Source: Gemmatimonadaceae bacterium (GTDB taxonomy: Bacteria > Gemmatimonadota > Gemmatimonadetes > Gemmatimonadales > Gemmatimonadaceae). Taken from it: a stretch of 57,994 bases of DNA. Numbering within the stretch: the stretch's first letter is position 1; each line of letters opens with the position of its first letter. The stretch spans positions 1 through 57,994 of the forward strand of contig JANWIF010000035.1 of NCBI GenBank assembly GCA_025450035.1. The letters run 5' to 3'. Positions 13,731 to 24,860 of this stretch are shown one piece after another. Both the position numbers and the translations under genes were made by a program. The notes beneath the pieces were generated by a model that worked only from the letters and a program-made list of their open reading frames with translations, was not told where the DNA came from and made no database searches.

Positions 13731-15095
13731 GTGCCTACCAAGAACCGATCGCTCGTTCCCGACACTACCGGCGCCACGAAGCAGGACATCCTCGAGCTCA
13801 CGCGCGCGCACGACGTGCGATTTCTCCGGCTGCAGTTCACCGATATCCTCGGCGTGAACAAGAACGTCGAAGTACCGGCGTCGCAGTTCGAGAAAGCGCT
13901 GGATGCGAACATGATGTTCGACGGCTCATCGATCGAGGGATTCGTGCGCATCGAAGAATCGGACATGCTCTTGGCGCCGGATCTGAGCACCTTCCGACTG
14001 TTTCCCTGGGGCGACGAGCACAACAGGGTGGCGCGCCTCATCTGCGACATCACGCTTCCTGACGGAACTCCGTTCGCGGGCGACCCGCGCGGGGTGCTCA
14101 AGCGCCAGATCGCGCGAGCGAAGGCCATGGGGTTCACGATGAACGCCGGGATGGAAGCGGAGTTCTTCATGTTCAAGCCCGCGTCGACTGCCCTTGAGAT
14201 GACTGAGACGCACGACGTCGGCGGCTACTTCGATCTCGCGCCGGTTGACCTGGGCGAGGATGCACGGCGGATGATCGTGGACTTGTTGGAGCAGATGGGC
14301 TTCGAGGTCGAGGCGGCGCACCACGAAGTGGCGCACGGGCAGCATGAGATCGACTTCCGCTATGCCGATGCGCTCAAGACCGCCGACAACATCGCAACCT
14401 TCCGATTCGTGGTGAAGTACGTGGCGCACCAGGTCGGTCTGGTCGCGTCGTTCATGCCCAAGCCGATTTTTGGACAGAACGGCAGCGGCATGCACACGCA
14501 CCAGTCGCTCTTCCGGGGCAACACGAATGCATTCTGGGAGAAGACTGCGCAGTGGGAGTTGAGCGATGTGGCGCTGCACTACATCGGCGGACTACTGCGG
14601 CACGCGCGCGGGTTCTGTGCAATCACAAACCCGCTCGTGAATTCGTACAAGCGGTTGGTGCCGGGCTACGAAGCGCCGGTGAACGTCGCCTGGTCGATGC
14701 GCAACCGGTCGCCGCTCATTCGCATCCCGGATCGTCGCGGCACCGGAACGCGGGTGGAATTGCGTATGCCCGATCCATCGGCGAATCCTTACCTGGCGTT
14801 GACCGTGATGCTTGCCGCCGGCCTCGACGGCGTCGAGACGAAGGCCGACTACCGGGAGCCGGTGGACGTGAACATCTGGGAACTCTCGTTCCGGGAGAAG
14901 CGCCGGCTGCGCATCGACGACCTGCCGCACGACCTGAACGAAGCCTGCGACGAGCTCGCGAAGGACAAGGTGATGGCCGCCGCGTTAGGCGACCATATCA
15001 CCGATCATTTCCTGGACGCGAAGCGACAAGAATGGAGGGAGTATATCACGCAAGTGAGCGCGTGGGAGTTGGAGAATTACCTGGAGAAGTACTAA
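13731..15095 (+). CDS. glnA: Glutamine synthetase type I
   Basis: The start is GTG at 13731, 6 bp after AGAGGA. The 454-residue protein carries the GSI landmarks: NMMFDGSSIEGF near residue 65, the ATP/metal site MEAEFFMF, the glutamate-site segment NGSGMHTHQSL, and NRSPLIRIPDRRGTGTRVE. The length and the C-terminus (WELENYLEKY) resemble the shorter GSI-alpha type of Bacillus. I do not see the GSI-beta adenylylation motif NLYDLP. It condenses ammonium and glutamate to glutamine with ATP in the cytosol. A type III enzyme is encoded 8 kb further on, and glnK-amtB 12 kb on, so the cell has layered ammonium assimilation. A 12-bp hairpin follows the gene. Confidence 0.95.
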   Translation: MPTKNRSLVPDTTGATKQDILELTRAHDVRFLRLQFTDILGVNKNVEVPASQFEKALDANMMFDGSSIEGFVRIEESDMLLAPDLSTFRLFPWGDEHNRVARLICDITLPDGTPFAGDPRGVLKRQIARAKAMGFTMNAGMEAEFFMFKPASTALEMTETHDVGGYFDLAPVDLGEDARRMIVDLLEQMGFEVEAAHHEVAHGQHEIDFRYADALKTADNIATFRFVVKYVAHQVGLVASFMPKPIFGQNGSGMHTHQSLFRGNTNAFWEKTAQWELSDVALHYIGGLLRHARGFCAITNPLVNSYKRLVPGYEAPVNVAWSMRNRSPLIRIPDRRGTGTRVELRMPDPSANPYLALTVMLAAGLDGVETKADYREPVDVNIWELSFREKRRLRIDDLPHDLNEACDELAKDKVMAAALGDHITDHFLDAKRQEWREYITQVSAWELENYLEKY

Positions 15096-15175: not shown

Positions 15176-16108
15176 TCATTTCGTCGAATCCTGCTTCGCC
15201 ACTGACGTCATCGCGCGCTCGGCAAACGCATCGGCGAGCGAGCCGACGGTTACCGAGTCAACACCCGGTTGATCGCTTTTCCCGTCGATGCGCCCGAGAC
15301 TTACCTGTGCCTTCGTGTAGGAGCTGTCGATGGCCAACGCCGCATGGTACGCTTGCGCGGCGAGTGTGATGTGGCCGGTGCGCTCGAGTGCGATGCCTAA
15401 ATTGTTCTGGAACGCGGCCACGCGGTCGTCGAGCTGCACCGCGCGAGCAAGTGGGCCGAGCGCTTCGTCGAACCGCCCGGCGCCGATGAGCAGCAGGCCC
15501 ATGTTATTCATCGACCACGTGTCCTGCGGGTCGAGTGTGAGCGCGGTGCGGTATGCGTTGAGTGCGTCATCGACGTGACCCGCCTGTCCATTCACGCGAC
15601 CTAGAACGCGCCACGCGTCGACGCTTCCGGAATCGATGGCGATCGCCGCTTCAATGCGCTCGCGGGCCTCGGCCACCTGCTGCTGTTCCAGCAGCACGCG
15701 GCTCAGGTTCACGAGGCTCTTCACGTGATGTGGATCCAGCTTCAGGACATCCTCGAACGCGCCGCGCGCGTGATCGAGCTGTCCGGCCTTCCAGGCCGAG
15801 AGTCCGAGCATGTAGTGTCCCCAGGGGTTTTCGGGGCGGCGCGCCGTGTAGGCGGCGAACATCGCGGTCGCGACCGCATAGCGACGGGCGCGGTACGCCG
15901 AATCCGCGGCTTCGTACGACACGTTAGGCGGAATCGAGAGGGAATCCGGCACCGGCGCGGCGACTATCGATTCCGGCACCGCCGCCACAGGTGTCGTGGC
16001 AACGGCGGGCTCGCTCGACTTGGGCGTGTTGTTCGTGCCGCCACACGCGGCGGCGGCGAACAGCGTGACGAGGGCGAGCGTGCTGGGGTGAAGGTGTGGG
16101 CGGAACAT
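15176..16108 (-). CDS. TPR-repeat lipoprotein
   Basis: The start at 16108 (MFRPHLHPSTLAL) has GGAGAGG upstream. A signal peptide ends in the lipobox AAACGG (Cys about residue 21), so the product should be a lipid-anchored periplasmic protein. After a low-complexity linker come about six tetratricopeptide repeats (for example WGHYMLGLSAWKAGQLDHAR, then MNNMGLLLIGAGRFDEALGP), covering residues about 80-270. TPRs are protein-binding scaffolds; the partner is unknown. The promoter region has a sigma54-type -24/-12 element and two upstream dyads (separate entries), pointing to control by the NtrC-class regulator encoded next door. Confidence 0.82.
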   Translation of the reverse strand: MFRPHLHPSTLALVTLFAAAACGGTNNTPKSSEPAVATTPVAAVPESIVAAPVPDSLSIPPNVSYEAADSAYRARRYAVATAMFAAYTARRPENPWGHYMLGLSAWKAGQLDHARGAFEDVLKLDPHHVKSLVNLSRVLLEQQQVAEARERIEAAIAIDSGSVDAWRVLGRVNGQAGHVDDALNAYRTALTLDPQDTWSMNNMGLLLIGAGRFDEALGPLARAVQLDDRVAAFQNNLGIALERTGHITLAAQAYHAALAIDSSYTKAQVSLGRIDGKSDQPGVDSVTVGSLADAFAERAMTSVAKQDSTK

Positions 16109-16180
16109 GAGACCTCTCCATGGGTGGCGCGCCCGGGGGGGGGCGCTGGTGACGTGTGTGACGTCTGCGGACCCATGGAA

Positions 16181-16197
16181 AGGCAAGAGGTTGGCCG
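16181..16197 (-). promoter_or_regulatory. Predicted sigma54 (-24/-12) promoter for the TPR lipoprotein gene
   Basis: On the minus strand the sequence is CGGCCAACCTCTTGCCT. The invariant GG and GC are exactly 10 bp apart and the -12 half reads TTGC, as in the consensus TGGCAC-N5-TTGCW. It is 73 bp upstream of the start codon at 16108, giving a leader of roughly 60 nt. The -24 half is less perfect (CGGCCA for TGGCAC). The adjacent sigma54 activator gene and the upstream dyads strengthen the call. Confidence 0.65.
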
Positions 16198-16282
16198 TTC
16201 GCGCAACGGCCGCGGCTCGCGGACCAACCCGTTGTAGCGATGTCAGTTAGGCAAACCGCGAGCCGGCGCTCCGAGAGGGGAT

Positions 16283-16332
16283 GTGTCCAACGGGACACCA
16301 GGCTCGGAGGTGCTGTGTGTCCGTGCGGACAC
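16283..16332. promoter_or_regulatory. Tandem dyad GTGTCC-N4-GGACAC, predicted enhancer (UAS) for a sigma54 activator
   Basis: Two perfect inverted repeats occupy 16283-16298 (spacer AACG) and 16317-16332 (spacer GTGC). Their centres are 34 bp apart, about three helical turns, so dimers would sit on the same face. They lie about 90-135 bp upstream of the predicted sigma54 promoter, the usual place for NtrC-type activator sites, and immediately downstream of the gene of such an activator. I saw no further copy in the window. Confidence 0.65.
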
Positions 16333-16397: not shown

Positions 16398-17765
16398 TCA
16401 CGATCGCGCGATGTGATGTCGGCGCATGATTTTCAGGAGGCTGGCATGGTCCGCCAACCCGAGCTCATGCGCCGTTTGCGTGATGTGCCATTCGTTTCGT
16501 TCGAGCGCGGCGAGGATGATCTGCCGCTCTCCCTCCGCCTTGAGCTCGAGAAACGTGCGTCCGCCACCCGTGGCCGATGGTGGCGCGTGAAGTGCGGCCT
16601 CATCGCGCACTTCGGCCGGCACGTGCTCCGGCCCGATCACCTCGTCATCGGACGCGATGATCATCCGCTCGACCGCATTGCGCAGCTCGCGCACGTTGTT
16701 GAGGTGCCAATCGTAGGCGGACAGCAGCGCCAATGCGTTAGGCGACAGACGCTTGCGACGAACGCCGAAGCGTTCGCAGGTAATGGTGAGCAGGTGCTCC
16801 GCGAGCTCCGGGATGTCCGACAACCGGTCCCGCAGCGGCGGCACGCGCAGCGAGTGCACGTTCAGCCGAAAGAGCAGATCGCGCCGGAAGCGGCCTTCGC
16901 GTACCGCTTCCTCCAGATCGCGATTCGTGGCCGCGACCACGCGCGCAGGCGTCGCGACGCTGCGGCTGCTCCCCAAGCGAACCACAGCACGCTCCTCGAG
17001 CACCCGGAGGAGCTTGGCCTGCGCCGCCGGTAGAAGTTCGCCGATTTCGTCGAGAAAAAGCGTCCCGCGCCCGGCGGACTCGAAGGCGCCCTTTCGCGTG
17101 ACATTCGCGCCGGTGAACGCGCCGCGTTCGTGGCCGAACAGCTCACTCTCCACGAGTTGCTCCGGCAGCGCCGCGCAATTCACGGCCACGAACGGCTCCC
17201 GCGCACCGGCGCTCAACCGGTGGACGTCGCGCGCGACGAGCTCCTTCCCCGACCCGCTCTCACCCCAGATGAGAACGGGGCTCGGAATCGGCGCCGCGCG
17301 TGCGATCGCGTCCTTGAGTGCACGCATCGCCGGGCTGCCTCCCAGGAGCGCACTCTCGCCGTCGGCGTACCGTCGGAGCACCGCCACTTCATCCAGAATA
17401 CGCCGACGCTCTATCGCGTTCTCGACCTCGCGGACCACGCGCTCAACGGCCTCCTGTTTGTCAATGAACGCGTACGCGCCCCACTTGATGGCTTGCACGC
17501 ACCGGTCATAGCTGCCCGTGCCTGTGTAGACGATCACCGGCGTATCGATGGCGCGCTCCCTCAGCGCGCGCAATACGGCGAATCCATCCATGCCCGGCAT
17601 CTCGAGGTCGAGGATGATGCACTCCACCGGCTCGCGCCCGACGATTTCCATCGCCACCTCGCCGGAGCCGGCGATGAGGACTTCGTGGCCGGCCAGGCGG
17701 CGCAGATCGTACGCGTACTGCTCGGCGAGCGGCGTGTTGTCGTCGCAGACGAGGAGCGTGCTCAT
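16398..17765 (-). CDS. Sigma54-dependent response regulator (NtrC class)
   Basis: The 455-residue product has three standard parts. REC (1-120) has DDNTPL, phospho-acceptor Asp in ILDLEMPG, and the conserved Lys in FIDKQEA. The AAA+ domain (about 140-380) shows Walker A GESGSGKE, the sigma54-contact loop GAFTGA within ERGAFTGAN, Walker B TLFLDEIGEL and the R-finger region FRRDLLFRL. A Fis-type HTH closes the protein (ITQTAHELGLADHASLLKIM). The start ATG overlaps the stop of the kinase gene (ATGA), so the pair is coupled. It should activate sigma54 promoters after phosphorylation; a matching promoter and enhancer pair sits just beyond its 3' end. Confidence 0.94.
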   Translation of the reverse strand: MSTLLVCDDNTPLAEQYAYDLRRLAGHEVLIAGSGEVAMEIVGREPVECIILDLEMPGMDGFAVLRALRERAIDTPVIVYTGTGSYDRCVQAIKWGAYAFIDKQEAVERVVREVENAIERRRILDEVAVLRRYADGESALLGGSPAMRALKDAIARAAPIPSPVLIWGESGSGKELVARDVHRLSAGAREPFVAVNCAALPEQLVESELFGHERGAFTGANVTRKGAFESAGRGTLFLDEIGELLPAAQAKLLRVLEERAVVRLGSSRSVATPARVVAATNRDLEEAVREGRFRRDLLFRLNVHSLRVPPLRDRLSDIPELAEHLLTITCERFGVRRKRLSPNALALLSAYDWHLNNVRELRNAVERMIIASDDEVIGPEHVPAEVRDEAALHAPPSATGGGRTFLELKAEGERQIILAALERNEWHITQTAHELGLADHASLLKIMRRHHIARS

Positions 17766-19483
17766 GTCATTCCGTTAGGCGAAAGGGGATCCGCCGGGAA
17801 CGTGATCGTGACCGTGGTGCCGGCGCCGGGCTGGGTGTCCACGCGCAGCACGCCGTGGAGATCGGTGACCAGCCGGCGGACGATCGACAGACCGAGACCG
17901 GTGCCGCCGGCCTTGGTGGTGTAGAAGTCATCGAACGCGCGATCCAGCTGCTCGCGCGTCATCCCGCGCCCCGTGTCGGTCACCGTCACGCGCACACCGC
18001 CATCCGCGACCCGCGCCGAGGAAATCGTGACGCCGCCACTGCGCCCGTCGAGCGCATCGGTCGCGTTGGACACCAGGTTCGTCAGGATGCGCCGTAGCAC
18101 GAGGGCGTCGGCCGGCACCACGGGGAGGTGCTCGTCGAGGTCGAGCGCTACGATCGTATTCGGCGGCAGCGCCGCCCCCGCCGCCACGCCACGCGCGACG
18201 GCGTTCGCGTCACACGGCACGACGTCCAGGCGAGGCGTTAGGCGGGCGTAGTTACGGGCCAGTGTGTCCAGGTAGGCCACGCTCGCCTCCAGCGTCGCGC
18301 GACGTTCCGCGAACACGGCGGCGAGCTGCTCAGGGTGCTCCTGTTCCACCTGCGTGAGGTGGCGCAGCACGTGACGGATCGGCGCGAGCCCATTCTTCAC
18401 GTCGTGATTCACTTGCCGCGCCAGATCGCCCATCGCCGCCCGCCGCTCGGCGTCGCGCACGCGGCTCACGCTCGCGCGGAGACGCCGCATCATCGCGTTC
18501 ATCAACCGCGCGAGCGCGCCGATTTCATCGTCGCGGCCCGCGGGAAACTCCATGTCTAAACGCTCGAAGTCCATGCGTGCCGTGCGGTCGGCGAGCGCCC
18601 GCAACGGTCGGCTCGTACGCTCGGCGAGCCACGCCGCCCCGACGAGCGCGGCGCTCGCACTGAGCACCAGCACGCCCAGAAACCAACGGTCCACGCTGCT
18701 CCGCAACGCCTCGAGCGCCTTGGGTGAATGCGAAACTGTGAAGGCCGCCGTTTGCAGGGTGCGACGGCCATGGCTGCCGGCGGCGACGTACGGAACGGGC
18801 AACGTGGCGATGACGTCTCCTCCGCCGGCGCCACTGCTGTCGCGGAGTGCAGTCGGCGCCGTGCGTCCCGCGCTGTCAGGCAGCCGCAGCGCTACCGCGA
18901 GATCGCTGTCCGCGGCCAACCGTGAGAGAAATGTCCGGCCCACGGCAATGCCGCCCACAAGCGTGAATGTCCGACCCCCAAGCCTCACGGAGTCCGAGCG
19001 CGCGAGCACCAGCAGCGGGCCGTCCGGCGTGCGCGCATTCACCAGCGCGGCGCCGCCCGGCGCCGCGGCGAGCAGCGCCGGAAGATCCGGCTCCAGTCGG
19101 TCGTATTCATTGCGGAACTGACCGGAGCTCAGAATGCGCCCACTGCTGTCCTGGATCTGCAGCATGGACAGTCCGGTGAGGCGCATGGCACGGCCGGCAT
19201 AGTCGAGGAGGTACGGGCGCTCGGTGTTCACCCCTCGAACCGCCGCGAGTCGAAAGCGATCATCCTCAGCCAGCGCCTCGCCGAGCGACGAGAGCCGGCT
19301 GCCGATCGCTGTGCCCCGCTGAGCGAGGTCCGCGCCCGTTACCCTAGCGAGCGCGGCAACGCGCGCCCGGTATTGCGCGGTGAGGCGCCGATCCAGCTCG
19401 CGTCTGACCCCGAACGCGATCACGACTAACGGAACGATGGCGACGACGCCGAACGCGGTCATCAGCCGGGCGCGGAAGGTCAT
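17762..19483 (-). CDS. Membrane sensor histidine kinase, NtrB/AtoS-like, with HAMP
   Basis: The start at 19483 (MTFRARLMTAFG) overlaps the stop of the upstream lipoprotein gene (ATGA). TM1 is about residues 8-25, a periplasmic sensor region of about 220 residues follows, TM2 lies near SVDRWFLGVLVLSASAALVG, and then a HAMP segment (RPLRALADRTARMDFERL). The phospho-acceptor helix reads MGDLARQVNHDVKNGLAPIR. The ATPase has the N box NLVSNATDAL, G1 DTGRGM and G2 GGTGLGLSIV. Unlike NtrB it is membrane-bound with a large external domain, so the signal is probably periplasmic. It is cotranscribed with the sigma54 regulator and a lipoprotein, which may be the ligand-binding partner. Confidence 0.92.
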   Translation of the reverse strand: MTFRARLMTAFGVVAIVPLVVIAFGVRRELDRRLTAQYRARVAALARVTGADLAQRGTAIGSRLSSLGEALAEDDRFRLAAVRGVNTERPYLLDYAGRAMRLTGLSMLQIQDSSGRILSSGQFRNEYDRLEPDLPALLAAAPGGAALVNARTPDGPLLVLARSDSVRLGGRTFTLVGGIAVGRTFLSRLAADSDLAVALRLPDSAGRTAPTALRDSSGAGGGDVIATLPVPYVAAGSHGRRTLQTAAFTVSHSPKALEALRSSVDRWFLGVLVLSASAALVGAAWLAERTSRPLRALADRTARMDFERLDMEFPAGRDDEIGALARLMNAMMRRLRASVSRVRDAERRAAMGDLARQVNHDVKNGLAPIRHVLRHLTQVEQEHPEQLAAVFAERRATLEASVAYLDTLARNYARLTPRLDVVPCDANAVARGVAAGAALPPNTIVALDLDEHLPVVPADALVLRRILTNLVSNATDALDGRSGGVTISSARVADGGVRVTVTDTGRGMTREQLDRAFDDFYTTKAGGTGLGLSIVRRLVTDLHGVLRVDTQPGAGTTVTITFPADPLSPNGMT

Positions 19484-20469
19484 GGCGCGCCGAGCCACGC
19501 AAACGGAACCCCGTTCACTCCGCGCCGCGCAACGATCCGCGCGCGTGTGTCCACCAACGCCACTGGCACGACATGCTCGGCGCGCGCCCACGGCGCCACG
19601 TGCGCGAGGTCGGCGCGATCTCCGCAGGTGTCGACGGCGTGGGCCGCCAACGCAAATACAAACGCCGCGGCGCTGCCCTCGGTAAGCGTGCGCGCGAAGG
19701 TCGTTGTCGACAGCCCGTCGGCGCGCCGCGGGCCTCCTGCGGCTGCCAGCGAAGGAGCTATAGTTGCGAGCGCGCCGGGTCCCTGTGCATCACCCTCCGA
19801 CGCCAGGGCCACGAGCCGCGTGGCCAGTGCCCGCGCTACATCGTCGCCCCGCTCATACACAATGCGCGGTGTGCCCGCGGGCATGATGGGGGCCGTCGGC
19901 GGTGTGGGTCCGGCGCACGTGTCCTCATCCGCCTCACGGAACGTCACCTCCGATGCCCGTGCCTCCGCGCGCACCGCGTTCGCCGCCAGCTCGGCCCGCA
20001 GTATCGCGCGCAGCGAATCGGCGCCCGGCGCCTCGTTAGGCGGTGGCGCGCTGCGCGCCAGGAACACATATGTACGTTCCCAGCCGCGCGGCACCGAAAC
20101 CAGGTCCGCGCGTGTCGCGGCGTATGCGAGAGCCGAAGGGTCGGCGGTCACCAGCACATCCACGCCCACGTCCAACGCATCGCGCGCCTCGCGCACCGAG
20201 ATCCGCTTCACGATGAGCAGCGGTGAGGCGACCGGGCCCAGCGGCTGCAAGCGCGCCGTGCCGTCGACTCCGGTGGTCAACTGATAGTGTCCGCTGGCCA
20301 CGAGACGCGCAGGCAGCGAGTCGGTCGAATCCGTGAACGCGACCACGAGTGAATCCGGCATCGGTGCGGCAACCGCCGTCGGCGGCGACGGCACCAGGCG
20401 CGATCCGCCAGCGCCGGCGTGTGTGCAGCCGGCGAACGCGATCATGATGACGATCCCGACGCGAGACAC
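19480..20469 (-). CDS. Lipoprotein of unknown function in the sensor-kinase operon
   Basis: The N-terminus MSRVGIVIMIAFAGC is a short signal peptide with lipobox FAGC (Cys 15). The 329-residue product has no motif I can name with confidence. A central stretch (SPLLIVKRISVREARDALDVG, then VLVTADPSALAYAATR) looks like a ligand-binding or substrate-binding fold from residue pattern only. Three cysteines are present after the lipobox Cys. The stop overlaps the start of the kinase gene (ATGA), so it is likely made with the kinase and may modulate it in the periplasm. Confidence 0.6.
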   Translation of the reverse strand: MSRVGIVIMIAFAGCTHAGAGGSRLVPSPPTAVAAPMPDSLVVAFTDSTDSLPARLVASGHYQLTTGVDGTARLQPLGPVASPLLIVKRISVREARDALDVGVDVLVTADPSALAYAATRADLVSVPRGWERTYVFLARSAPPPNEAPGADSLRAILRAELAANAVRAEARASEVTFREADEDTCAGPTPPTAPIMPAGTPRIVYERGDDVARALATRLVALASEGDAQGPGALATIAPSLAAAGGPRRADGLSTTTFARTLTEGSAAAFVFALAAHAVDTCGDRADLAHVAPWARAEHVVPVALVDTRARIVARRGVNGVPFAWLGAP

Positions 20470-22275: not shown

Positions 22276-22644
22276 TCAGCGCGGCTTGCCCCGCGGAAAG
22301 GCCAGCAACGCCAGCGGCACCTTCCGCAGGCCGCGCCACTCCTGCAGGGTGCCGCTCGTATCGCGTAGCCGCAACTGACTGGAGATGCCTCCGTCCAGGG
22401 CCACCGCGCTGCGGCAGCCGGGCGCTCCCATCAGGGCAGGCATTTCCGGCGTGGTGAGGCCAAAAGGAACACAGTCCATCGCGCCGTCAAGCGCATCGAA
22501 TCGCGTGAGCGCGATGATCACGCGGCCATCAACGCGTTTCGCCGAATGCGAGGCGGGCGTCGCGGTGGCCAAGGTCCACGCCTCCGTTGGGCACCCGCCG
22601 CGGTCCAGCGCCAGCGACGACGGCGGCAATCGGTGCCGCGTCAC
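22276..22644 (-). pseudogene. C-terminal fragment of a phosphodiester glycosidase (NAGPA/DUF2233) domain protein
   Basis: The open frame begins at GTG 22644, which overlaps the glnN stop (GTGA). The 122-residue translation holds only the end of a NAGPA-type domain: RVIIALTRFD, then LTTPEMPALM, and the hallmark strand AVALDGGISSQL, followed by LRKVPLALLAF. Family members normally need about 200 further residues upstream, and none are visible because glnN occupies that DNA. It is therefore probably a remnant left when glnN or another event replaced the 5' part, though translational coupling could still express it. The DGG motif with SSQ instead of the more common SST is retained. Confidence 0.55.
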
Positions 22645-24860
22645 ACGGGGAACAGCATTTCACGATACTTGGGAAGCGGCCACTGATCGTCGGGCACCAG
22701 CAGCTCGAGCGTGTCGCAGCTCGACCGGATGTCGGCCATTCGGCCCGCGCCGTCGGATGTGAGCAGCTTGGCCTGCGCGTGCGGATCATGGTGCATTGCA
22801 TCCGCCTTCTCGATCACCTTGGCCAACGCGACGCGCTGCTTCTGGATCTGCTGAATGACGGCGCCCAACTCCTTGGCCGTTTCCAATTCGGGCACCGCGC
22901 CCAATCCCAGCCCTTTCGCCTTGGAGGCGGTGTCGATCAGCGCGCCGTGATAGGCGAATGCAGACGGGAGAATCATGGTGTCCACCATCTGACGAATGGT
23001 GTGCAACTCGATGAGCATGTCCTTCGTGTAGCGTTCCATGCGCACGTGGAAGCGCGACTCCAGCTCTTCGCGTGACAGGATGCCGAGGCCCTGGAACAAC
23101 GCGCGGGCCGGCTTAGTGAGGAGTTGCTCCAAGGCGTCCGGCGTGCTCCGCAAGTTAGGCAGCCGGCGCCGCGCGGCTTCCTTCACCCAGTCTTCGGAGT
23201 AGTTGTTGCCTTCGAACCTGATGTCGGCGGTCTCCTTGAACGCCTTGCGCACCACCTTCAGGACGGCGTCGTCCACGGATTTGGTGCTGCCGAGTGCCGC
23301 GCGCAGCTGCTCAGTGAGCTCGCCTATCGCTTCGGCAACCGTGGCGTTGAGCAGCATGACCGGGAAGGCGATGGACTGCGAGCCGCCCACAGCGCGGAAC
23401 TCGAACTTCGCCCCGGTGAACGCGAACGGTGATGTGCGGTTCCGATCGGTGTTGTCCTTCTGGATCTCCGGGAGCCGAGCGACGCCGAGCGTGATCATCG
23501 CCTGTTGGGCGTTGGCCGCCGATATCTTGCTAGCCGCGATGTCCTCGATCACGTGCGTCAACATCTCGCCCATGAAGACGGAGATGATCGCCGGCGGCGC
23601 CTCGTTGGCGCCTAACCGGTGCTCGTTCCCCGACGATGCTACTCCGGCGCGCAGCACACCGGCGTGGGTGTGCACCGCCTTCAACACCGCCGCCAGGAAG
23701 ATCAGGAACCGCAGATTCTGATGCGGCGTGTTGCCGGGCTTGAGCAGGTTGACGCCATCGAGCTCGTTGTCCGATGTGATGGACATCGACCAGTTGCAGT
23801 GTTTACCCGACCCGTTGATCCCGGCGAACGGCTTCTCGTGCAGCACCGCCTGCAGGCGGTGGCGCAGCGCGACCTTGCGCAGCGTGGCCATCACCAGCTG
23901 ATTGTGATCCACGGCCACATCGGTCTCTTCGAACATGGGCGCCATCTCGAATTGGCTCGGCGCCACCTCGTTGTGCCGCGTCACGATCGGCACGCCGAGT
24001 TTGTACAGTTCGTGCTCCACCTCGGCGATGCACGCTTGCACCCGTTCCGGAATGCCGCCGAAGTAGTGGTCTTCCAGTTGCTGCCCGCGCGGGGGCGGCG
24101 CGCCGAGGAGTGTGCGACCGGCCATGACCAGGTCGGGCCGCAAGGCGAAGTGCTCGCGGTCGATCAGGAAGTACTCCTGCTCCGGGCCCAACGTGGTGTA
24201 CACGCGCGACACGCCGCGGTCGCCTAACAGCTCGAGCAGCGCAATCGCTTTCTGCGACAACACGTCCGAACTGCGCAGCAGCGGCGTCATCTCATCGAGC
24301 GCTTCCCCGTTGTAGCCGATGAAGACCGATGGAATGCACAGCGTGCGCGTGGTGCCGGACTCGACGATGAAGATCGGGCTTGCCGGATTCCAGGCAGTGT
24401 ACCCGCGCGCTTCCCACGTCGCACGCAACCCGCCCGAGGGGAAACTGGACGCGTCGGGCTCACTCTGGATGAGCTGCTCGCCCGTGAACGACTCCATCGG
24501 CTGCCGGTCGTCGTCGAACGAGAGAAACGCGTCGTGTTTTTCCTCGGTGAGGCCGGTTTGCGGCTGGAACCAGTGGGTGAAGTGCGTCACCCCGCGCGAG
24601 ATTGCCCACTCCTTGATGACCTGCGCCACCGTCGGCGCGATGTGCTGGTCGAGTTTCTTGCCGTGACGGATCGCCGACACAAGCTCGGCGTACACGTCGC
24701 GCGGAAGCTTGGCTCGCATCTGCCGGACGCCGAACGTGTTGATCCCGAAATATTCCGAGGTGGGCAGGTGCGCGGGCGCGTTTCCGTTAGTGCGCGTCGT
24801 ATCAACCGTTGTCCGTCCCGTGATGTCGGTAAGGACCGTCTTGCGCGAGGTGAGGGGCAT
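22641..24860 (-). CDS. glnN: Glutamine synthetase type III
   Basis: The 739-residue product matches the long GSIII form. Landmarks are FGINTFGVRQMRAKL at the N-terminus, THWFQPQTG near residue 95, TLGPEQEYFLID (metal-binding Glu residues), VTRHNEVAPSQFEMAP, and NGSGKHCNWSMS of the active site. The C-terminal helical extension is typical of GSIII dodecamers. It makes glutamine from ammonium and glutamate. GSIII is often induced under nitrogen limitation in bacteria that also carry GSI, which fits glnA and glnK-amtB nearby. A conserved 12-mer that may be the promoter lies about 78 bp upstream (24939-24950). Confidence 0.94.
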   Translation of the reverse strand: MPLTSRKTVLTDITGRTTVDTTRTNGNAPAHLPTSEYFGINTFGVRQMRAKLPRDVYAELVSAIRHGKKLDQHIAPTVAQVIKEWAISRGVTHFTHWFQPQTGLTEEKHDAFLSFDDDRQPMESFTGEQLIQSEPDASSFPSGGLRATWEARGYTAWNPASPIFIVESGTTRTLCIPSVFIGYNGEALDEMTPLLRSSDVLSQKAIALLELLGDRGVSRVYTTLGPEQEYFLIDREHFALRPDLVMAGRTLLGAPPPRGQQLEDHYFGGIPERVQACIAEVEHELYKLGVPIVTRHNEVAPSQFEMAPMFEETDVAVDHNQLVMATLRKVALRHRLQAVLHEKPFAGINGSGKHCNWSMSITSDNELDGVNLLKPGNTPHQNLRFLIFLAAVLKAVHTHAGVLRAGVASSGNEHRLGANEAPPAIISVFMGEMLTHVIEDIAASKISAANAQQAMITLGVARLPEIQKDNTDRNRTSPFAFTGAKFEFRAVGGSQSIAFPVMLLNATVAEAIGELTEQLRAALGSTKSVDDAVLKVVRKAFKETADIRFEGNNYSEDWVKEAARRRLPNLRSTPDALEQLLTKPARALFQGLGILSREELESRFHVRMERYTKDMLIELHTIRQMVDTMILPSAFAYHGALIDTASKAKGLGLGAVPELETAKELGAVIQQIQKQRVALAKVIEKADAMHHDPHAQAKLLTSDGAGRMADIRSSCDTLELLVPDDQWPLPKYREMLFPV

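Follow-up and report, generated by a model that had tools for sequence, protein, structure and literature searches.

The ZraS-ZraR-ZraP system of E. coli is a sigma54 two-component system that drives an exported accessory protein, ZraP, which is not a TPR lipoprotein. Two further described systems are relevant for the locus considered here. The nearest analogue is the PrsK-PrsR-PrsT system, in which the genes for a membrane kinase, an NtrC-type regulator and a TPR lipoprotein are often found together (PMC1569441); the sigma54 targets in this system are the PEP-CTERM genes, and the expression of prsT is unaffected by disruption of rpoN1 (PMC9850573). In enterobacteria, the QseE-QseG-QseF system (GlrK/GlrR) relies on tandem TGT...ACA upstream sites and on the help of IHF, with the lipoprotein QseG controlling the kinase (PMC6075780).

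The locus in question lies in a window of 57,994 nucleotides (the whole stretch of DNA that was analysed), which is contig JANWIF010000035.1 of a Gemmatimonadaceae MAG (GCA_025450035.1). We are highly confident that the 290-bp gap between the end of an NtrC-class regulator gene (16398) and the ATG of a TPR lipoprotein gene (16108), both on the minus strand, represents a sigma54-dependent control region of the lipoprotein gene, to which the product of the adjacent regulator gene would bind. Very probably, the locus as a whole encodes a dedicated envelope-sensing circuit, as the earlier note on this sequence had guessed.

The window module shares with the Prs system the combination of kinase, NtrC-type regulator and TPR lipoprotein, as well as a conserved activator site and a -24/-12 promoter (PMC1569441, PMC9850573). 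However, all three window proteins score below the NCBIfam equivalog cut-offs for Prs (308.8 versus 502.6 bits for TIGR02915, 69.2 versus 300 for TIGR02916, and 79.3 versus 312.2 for TIGR02917) and exosortase (PF09721) is found in 0 of the 15 genomes with the system, so that membership in the PEP-CTERM (PrsK/PrsR/PrsT) group was rejected. The likeness to QseEGF comprises the sigma54 regulator, the tandem TGT...ACA sites, the putative assistance of IHF and the association of a lipoprotein with the kinase, whereas the differences concern the spacing within the sites (TGT-N12-ACA in QseEGF versus TGT-N8-ACA here) and the target, which in QseEGF is the sRNA glmY (and rpoE), not a lipoprotein (PMC6075780); the GlrR model yields 289.1 bits on the window regulator against a cut-off of 763. 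With ZraSRP, the module has in common a sigma54 two-component system and an exported accessory protein, and the cytoplasmic part of the kinase has ZraS among its best structural matches; the window proteins score well short of the ZraR and ZraS cut-offs (for ZraR, 311.4 versus 760 bits), and the window module, as compared to ZraSRP, includes a fourth gene, for an SBP-like protein. The module works like the Prs and QseEGF systems but is not a member of either.

All four genes of the module are on the minus strand. The predicted target (15176-16108), with Pfam TPR matches, has a lipobox cysteine that is invariant in 29 orthologues; its structure model is a TPR superhelix (pLDDT 88), which retrieves generic TPR structures from the PDB. 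The predicted activator (16398-17765) had been described in the earlier note as carrying GAFTGA and a Fis-type HTH, which holds: the HTH scores 27.6 bits (Pfam HTH_8, cut-off 22), and receiver, AAA+ and HTH are all above the Pfam cut-off, as in the NtrC class (bEBP). GAFTGA is conserved in 26 orthologues, with GAFSGA and GSFTGA as variants in single orthologues, and the HTH segment LADHASLLKIMRR is nearly invariant in the alignment of these 26 sequences. The membrane sensor histidine kinase (17762-19483; Pfam HAMP and HATPase_c) has a conserved histidine box, NHDxKN, and most likely starts at the ATG at 19483 rather than at the GTG at 19591, because the orthologues begin there; searches with its structure model return mainly cytoplasmic kinase domains. 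The fourth gene, which is a conserved addition to the circuit, codes for an SBP_bac_5-like lipoprotein (19480-20469), a possible signal receptor whose homologues precede the kinase in many loci. The SBP-like and kinase genes, as well as the kinase and regulator genes, overlap by ATGA. Five full-length orthologues of the SBP-like lipoprotein are above the PF00496 (SBP_bac_5) cut-off; the window copy has no Pfam match, being shorter than most orthologues and missing the part that matches SBP_bac_5, so its ligand binding may be changed or lost. Two glutamine synthetase genes flank the module in the window, a type I glnA (13731-15095) and a type III gene (22641-24860); glnA is found beside the locus in close relatives only, and none of the other loci compared has the type III gene as a neighbour. 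A link to nitrogen via these neighbours was rejected, since they are not kept across loci.

Within the gap, both GTGTCC-N4-GGACAC dyads reported in the earlier note are exact, the distal one at 16317-16332 (GTGTCCGTGCGGACAC) and the proximal one at 16283-16298 (GTGTCCAACGGGACAC), 34 bp start to start. The GG-N10-GC element that it placed before the lipoprotein gene is likewise present, on the minus strand at 16183-16196 (GGCCAACCTCTTGC), the 17-mer originally quoted ending 72 nt before the ATG, the A of which is 16108; transcription would be expected to start at about 16171. The -24 GG is separated from the proximal dyad by 86 bp. A pattern search of the 3.5-Mb source genome retrieves these two perfect dyads only, and a reversed control pattern has no matches there. 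As the bare GG-N9-TGC pattern occurs 169 times in the window (GG-N8-TTGCC, 11 times), the promoter match alone is weak evidence. Ten one-mismatch dyads in the source genome were considered as marks of further targets and rejected, as they lack a sigma54 site at the right distance and a good second dyad.

The conservation of these elements was assessed in a family set, made up of regulator orthologues (59-79% identity) and lipoprotein orthologues from the bacterial family to which the source MAG belongs. When aligned, the upstream regions have little in common apart from the two dyads, the promoter and the ribosome-binding site. Both dyads, with up to 2 mismatches allowed in each, are kept, 33-34 bp apart, in 14/14 orthologous loci with enough upstream sequence, and 15/15 have GG-N10-GC with C as the next base, the TGCC being invariant and a T lying three bases beyond the GC; this retention amid otherwise diverged sequence argues for a sigma54 enhancer. 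Among 79 family genomes, the dyad pair occurs in 11 of the 15 that have the system and in 0 of the 64 that do not (Fisher p ~1.5e-10, relatedness of the genomes being ignored). Nearly all the named loci are from MAGs, so that absence in any one genome means little.

The conservation of dyads and promoter, by which the earlier note proposed to check its reading, extends across phyla. A phylum-wide search of 395 genomes recovers the dyad pair in 37 of them, as against none for the reversed control. A gene-blind scan for double dyads in ~85,000 species genomes yielded 46 sites, of which 42 adjoin orthologues of the regulator and/or the lipoprotein (33 both, 9 one, most of the latter being cut by the end of the locus or contig) and 4 adjoin neither. 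Judged by record titles, the sites belong to Gemmatimonadota, Latescibacterota, Krumholzibacteriota, Bacteroidota/Rhodothermia and Acidobacteriota. In 55 distinct loci, the distal dyad is perfect in 39, with one mismatch in 14 and two in 2, and the proximal dyad is perfect in 32, with one mismatch in 19 and two in 4; a sigma54-type promoter is found in 54 of the 55. The switch has thus been retained almost base for base in at least five phyla, nearly always next to the gene of its likely activator, and this near-exclusive association makes the interpretation as a dedicated circuit very probable. When nine genomes were scanned for perfect dyads, every match fell at this locus, with 1-2 per genome in eight and only imperfect dyads in the ninth; these patterns suggest a single private target for the regulator. 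Two chromosomes from another family of the same class (G204 and G335) contain dyad pairs with neither regulator nor lipoprotein nearby (L175 2603-2651, L176 3284-3332 and L177 2647-2696), with a sigma54-type site 97-98 bp away; downstream lie genes that include those for a periplasmic-looking protein, a BlaI-like/BlaR1 M56 peptidase pair and a DUF5916 protein, so that the regulon may have expanded in this particular lineage. One more dyad pair (L187 1126-1174), on a 7-kb contig of a viral collection, may be a chance match or a misassigned bacterial fragment.

The geometry of the control region is similarly constrained. In the 55 loci, the dyads are spaced by 34 bp in 46 and by 33 bp in 9, and the proximal dyad lies 63-64, 76, 84-89 or 95-103 bp from the -24 element, with no distances between these bands. 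The periodicity of these distances exceeds that of all 500 random sets (p ~0.0005 with each distance counted once); since the best period, 11.5 bp, slightly exceeds one helical turn and related loci do not provide independent data, helical phasing of the dyads and the promoter is suggested rather than proven. Between the dyads and the promoter, a YAA-N4-TTR site (16225-16234 in the window, CAACGGGTTG on the minus strand) is present in 32/54 loci, where ~2.5 would be expected, as opposed to 0/54 in a control region downstream; nearly all such sites have their centre 32-38 and/or 48-52 bp before the -24 element, and their position is locked to the promoter, not to the dyads. A putative IHF site is a natural reading, and the source genome has a gene of the HU/IHF family; as the flank, inspected by eye, does not show the complete IHF consensus, the site may instead serve some other bending or binding protein. 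Stems of 5 bp or more occur within the predicted 5' leader of 37/54 loci versus ~12.5 expected, in the form of a short GC-rich hairpin just before the ribosome-binding site (16129-16146 in the window, minus strand); the folding energy of the whole leader is unremarkable (mean z -0.3).

The dyads are self-complementary with 4-nt loops, and the gap, as minus-strand RNA, is predicted to fold stably (z -5.3), as would be expected if they acted as RNA, forming a terminator or attenuator hairpin either where the regulator transcript ends or within a long leader. However, of the 44 base pairs that differ in 110 dyads, 34 have lost their pairing through a change on one side, 9 carry a one-sided change that leaves the pairing intact, and a single one has compensating changes on both sides. 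Furthermore, in two loci (L078 and L088) the regulator gene is ~2 kb away from the lipoprotein gene and the dyads remain with the latter, and an RNA would need neither the fixed spacing of 33-34 bp nor a phased distance to the promoter. As the changes are almost all uncompensated, the terminator/attenuator reading, which we consider extremely improbable, was rejected, and the dyads fit a protein-binding DNA site.

Given the frequency of GG-N9-TGC in this GC-rich window, the GG-N10-GC element might be fortuitous, with the lipoprotein gene transcribed from an ordinary sigma70-type promoter and the dyads serving its repressor or activator; the strict retention of the promoter in the family, down to the TGCC and the T beyond it, and its spacing from the dyads, which in 54 loci takes quantised values only, leave this a practically negligible probability. 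It is also very unlikely that the sigma54 enhancer is real but the dyads are bound by a different sigma54 activator. Most genomes contain at least 19 other NtrC-like matches, the regulator gene is sometimes ~2 kb from the element, and association as such does not prove that the adjacent regulator, and not another, binds the dyads; nevertheless, none of the 64 sampled family genomes that lack the system has the pair, although these encode many NtrC-like proteins, the adjacency of the regulator is kept across phyla, and its HTH segment is, like the dyad, nearly invariant.

Against the reading as a sigma54 enhancer bound by the adjacent regulator stand the failure to find rpoN in the source MAG, which is 81% complete, the departure of the promoter from the -24 consensus TGGCAC outside the GG, and the four scan sites without either gene. 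The rpoN gene is present in 60/60 high-quality genomes of the family and in 4/5 other genomes of the genus, in one of them as a fragment. Taken together, the conservation of dyads and promoter in the family, the adjacency of 42 of the 46 gene-blind matches to the regulator and/or the lipoprotein, the quantised dyad-promoter distances, the presence of sigma54 in all the high-quality family genomes, the stay of the dyads with the lipoprotein where the regulator lies ~2 kb away, the occurrence of the pair, but not of the reversed control, in the phylum and its restriction within the family to genomes with the system, and the location of all perfect dyads of nine genomes at this locus argue for this sigma54 enhancer.

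From this arrangement we infer how the circuit would function. A signal, probably from outside the cytoplasm and perhaps read via the SBP_bac_5-like lipoprotein of the same operon, would lead the membrane kinase to phosphorylate the NtrC-class regulator encoded with it. The regulator would bind the two dyads as an enhancer and, upon looping of the DNA, perhaps aided by a bend at the YAA-N4-TTR site, contact the sigma54-RNA polymerase at GG-N10-GC, using ATP to open the promoter. The TPR lipoprotein would then act as an effector in the envelope and/or feed back on the sensor, the latter amounting to the closed circuit that the earlier note envisaged.

The literature searched, largely from outside the subscription journals, yielded no description of this module. 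Tentatively, and at somewhat less than even confidence, we would regard it as an uncharacterised four-gene module of envelope surveillance (SBP_bac_5-like lipoprotein, kinase, sigma54 regulator and TPR lipoprotein) that is found in at least five phyla, whose activator would have a single private target in most genomes, this target either feeding back on the sensor or scaffolding envelope repair. The regulator, its site and its target would form a fully specified trio across mostly uncultured phyla, and a regulator with a single target would make the signal and the function unusually easy to test. Such a module would agree with the main role proposed for sigma54, that of serving the cell exterior (PMC3162934).
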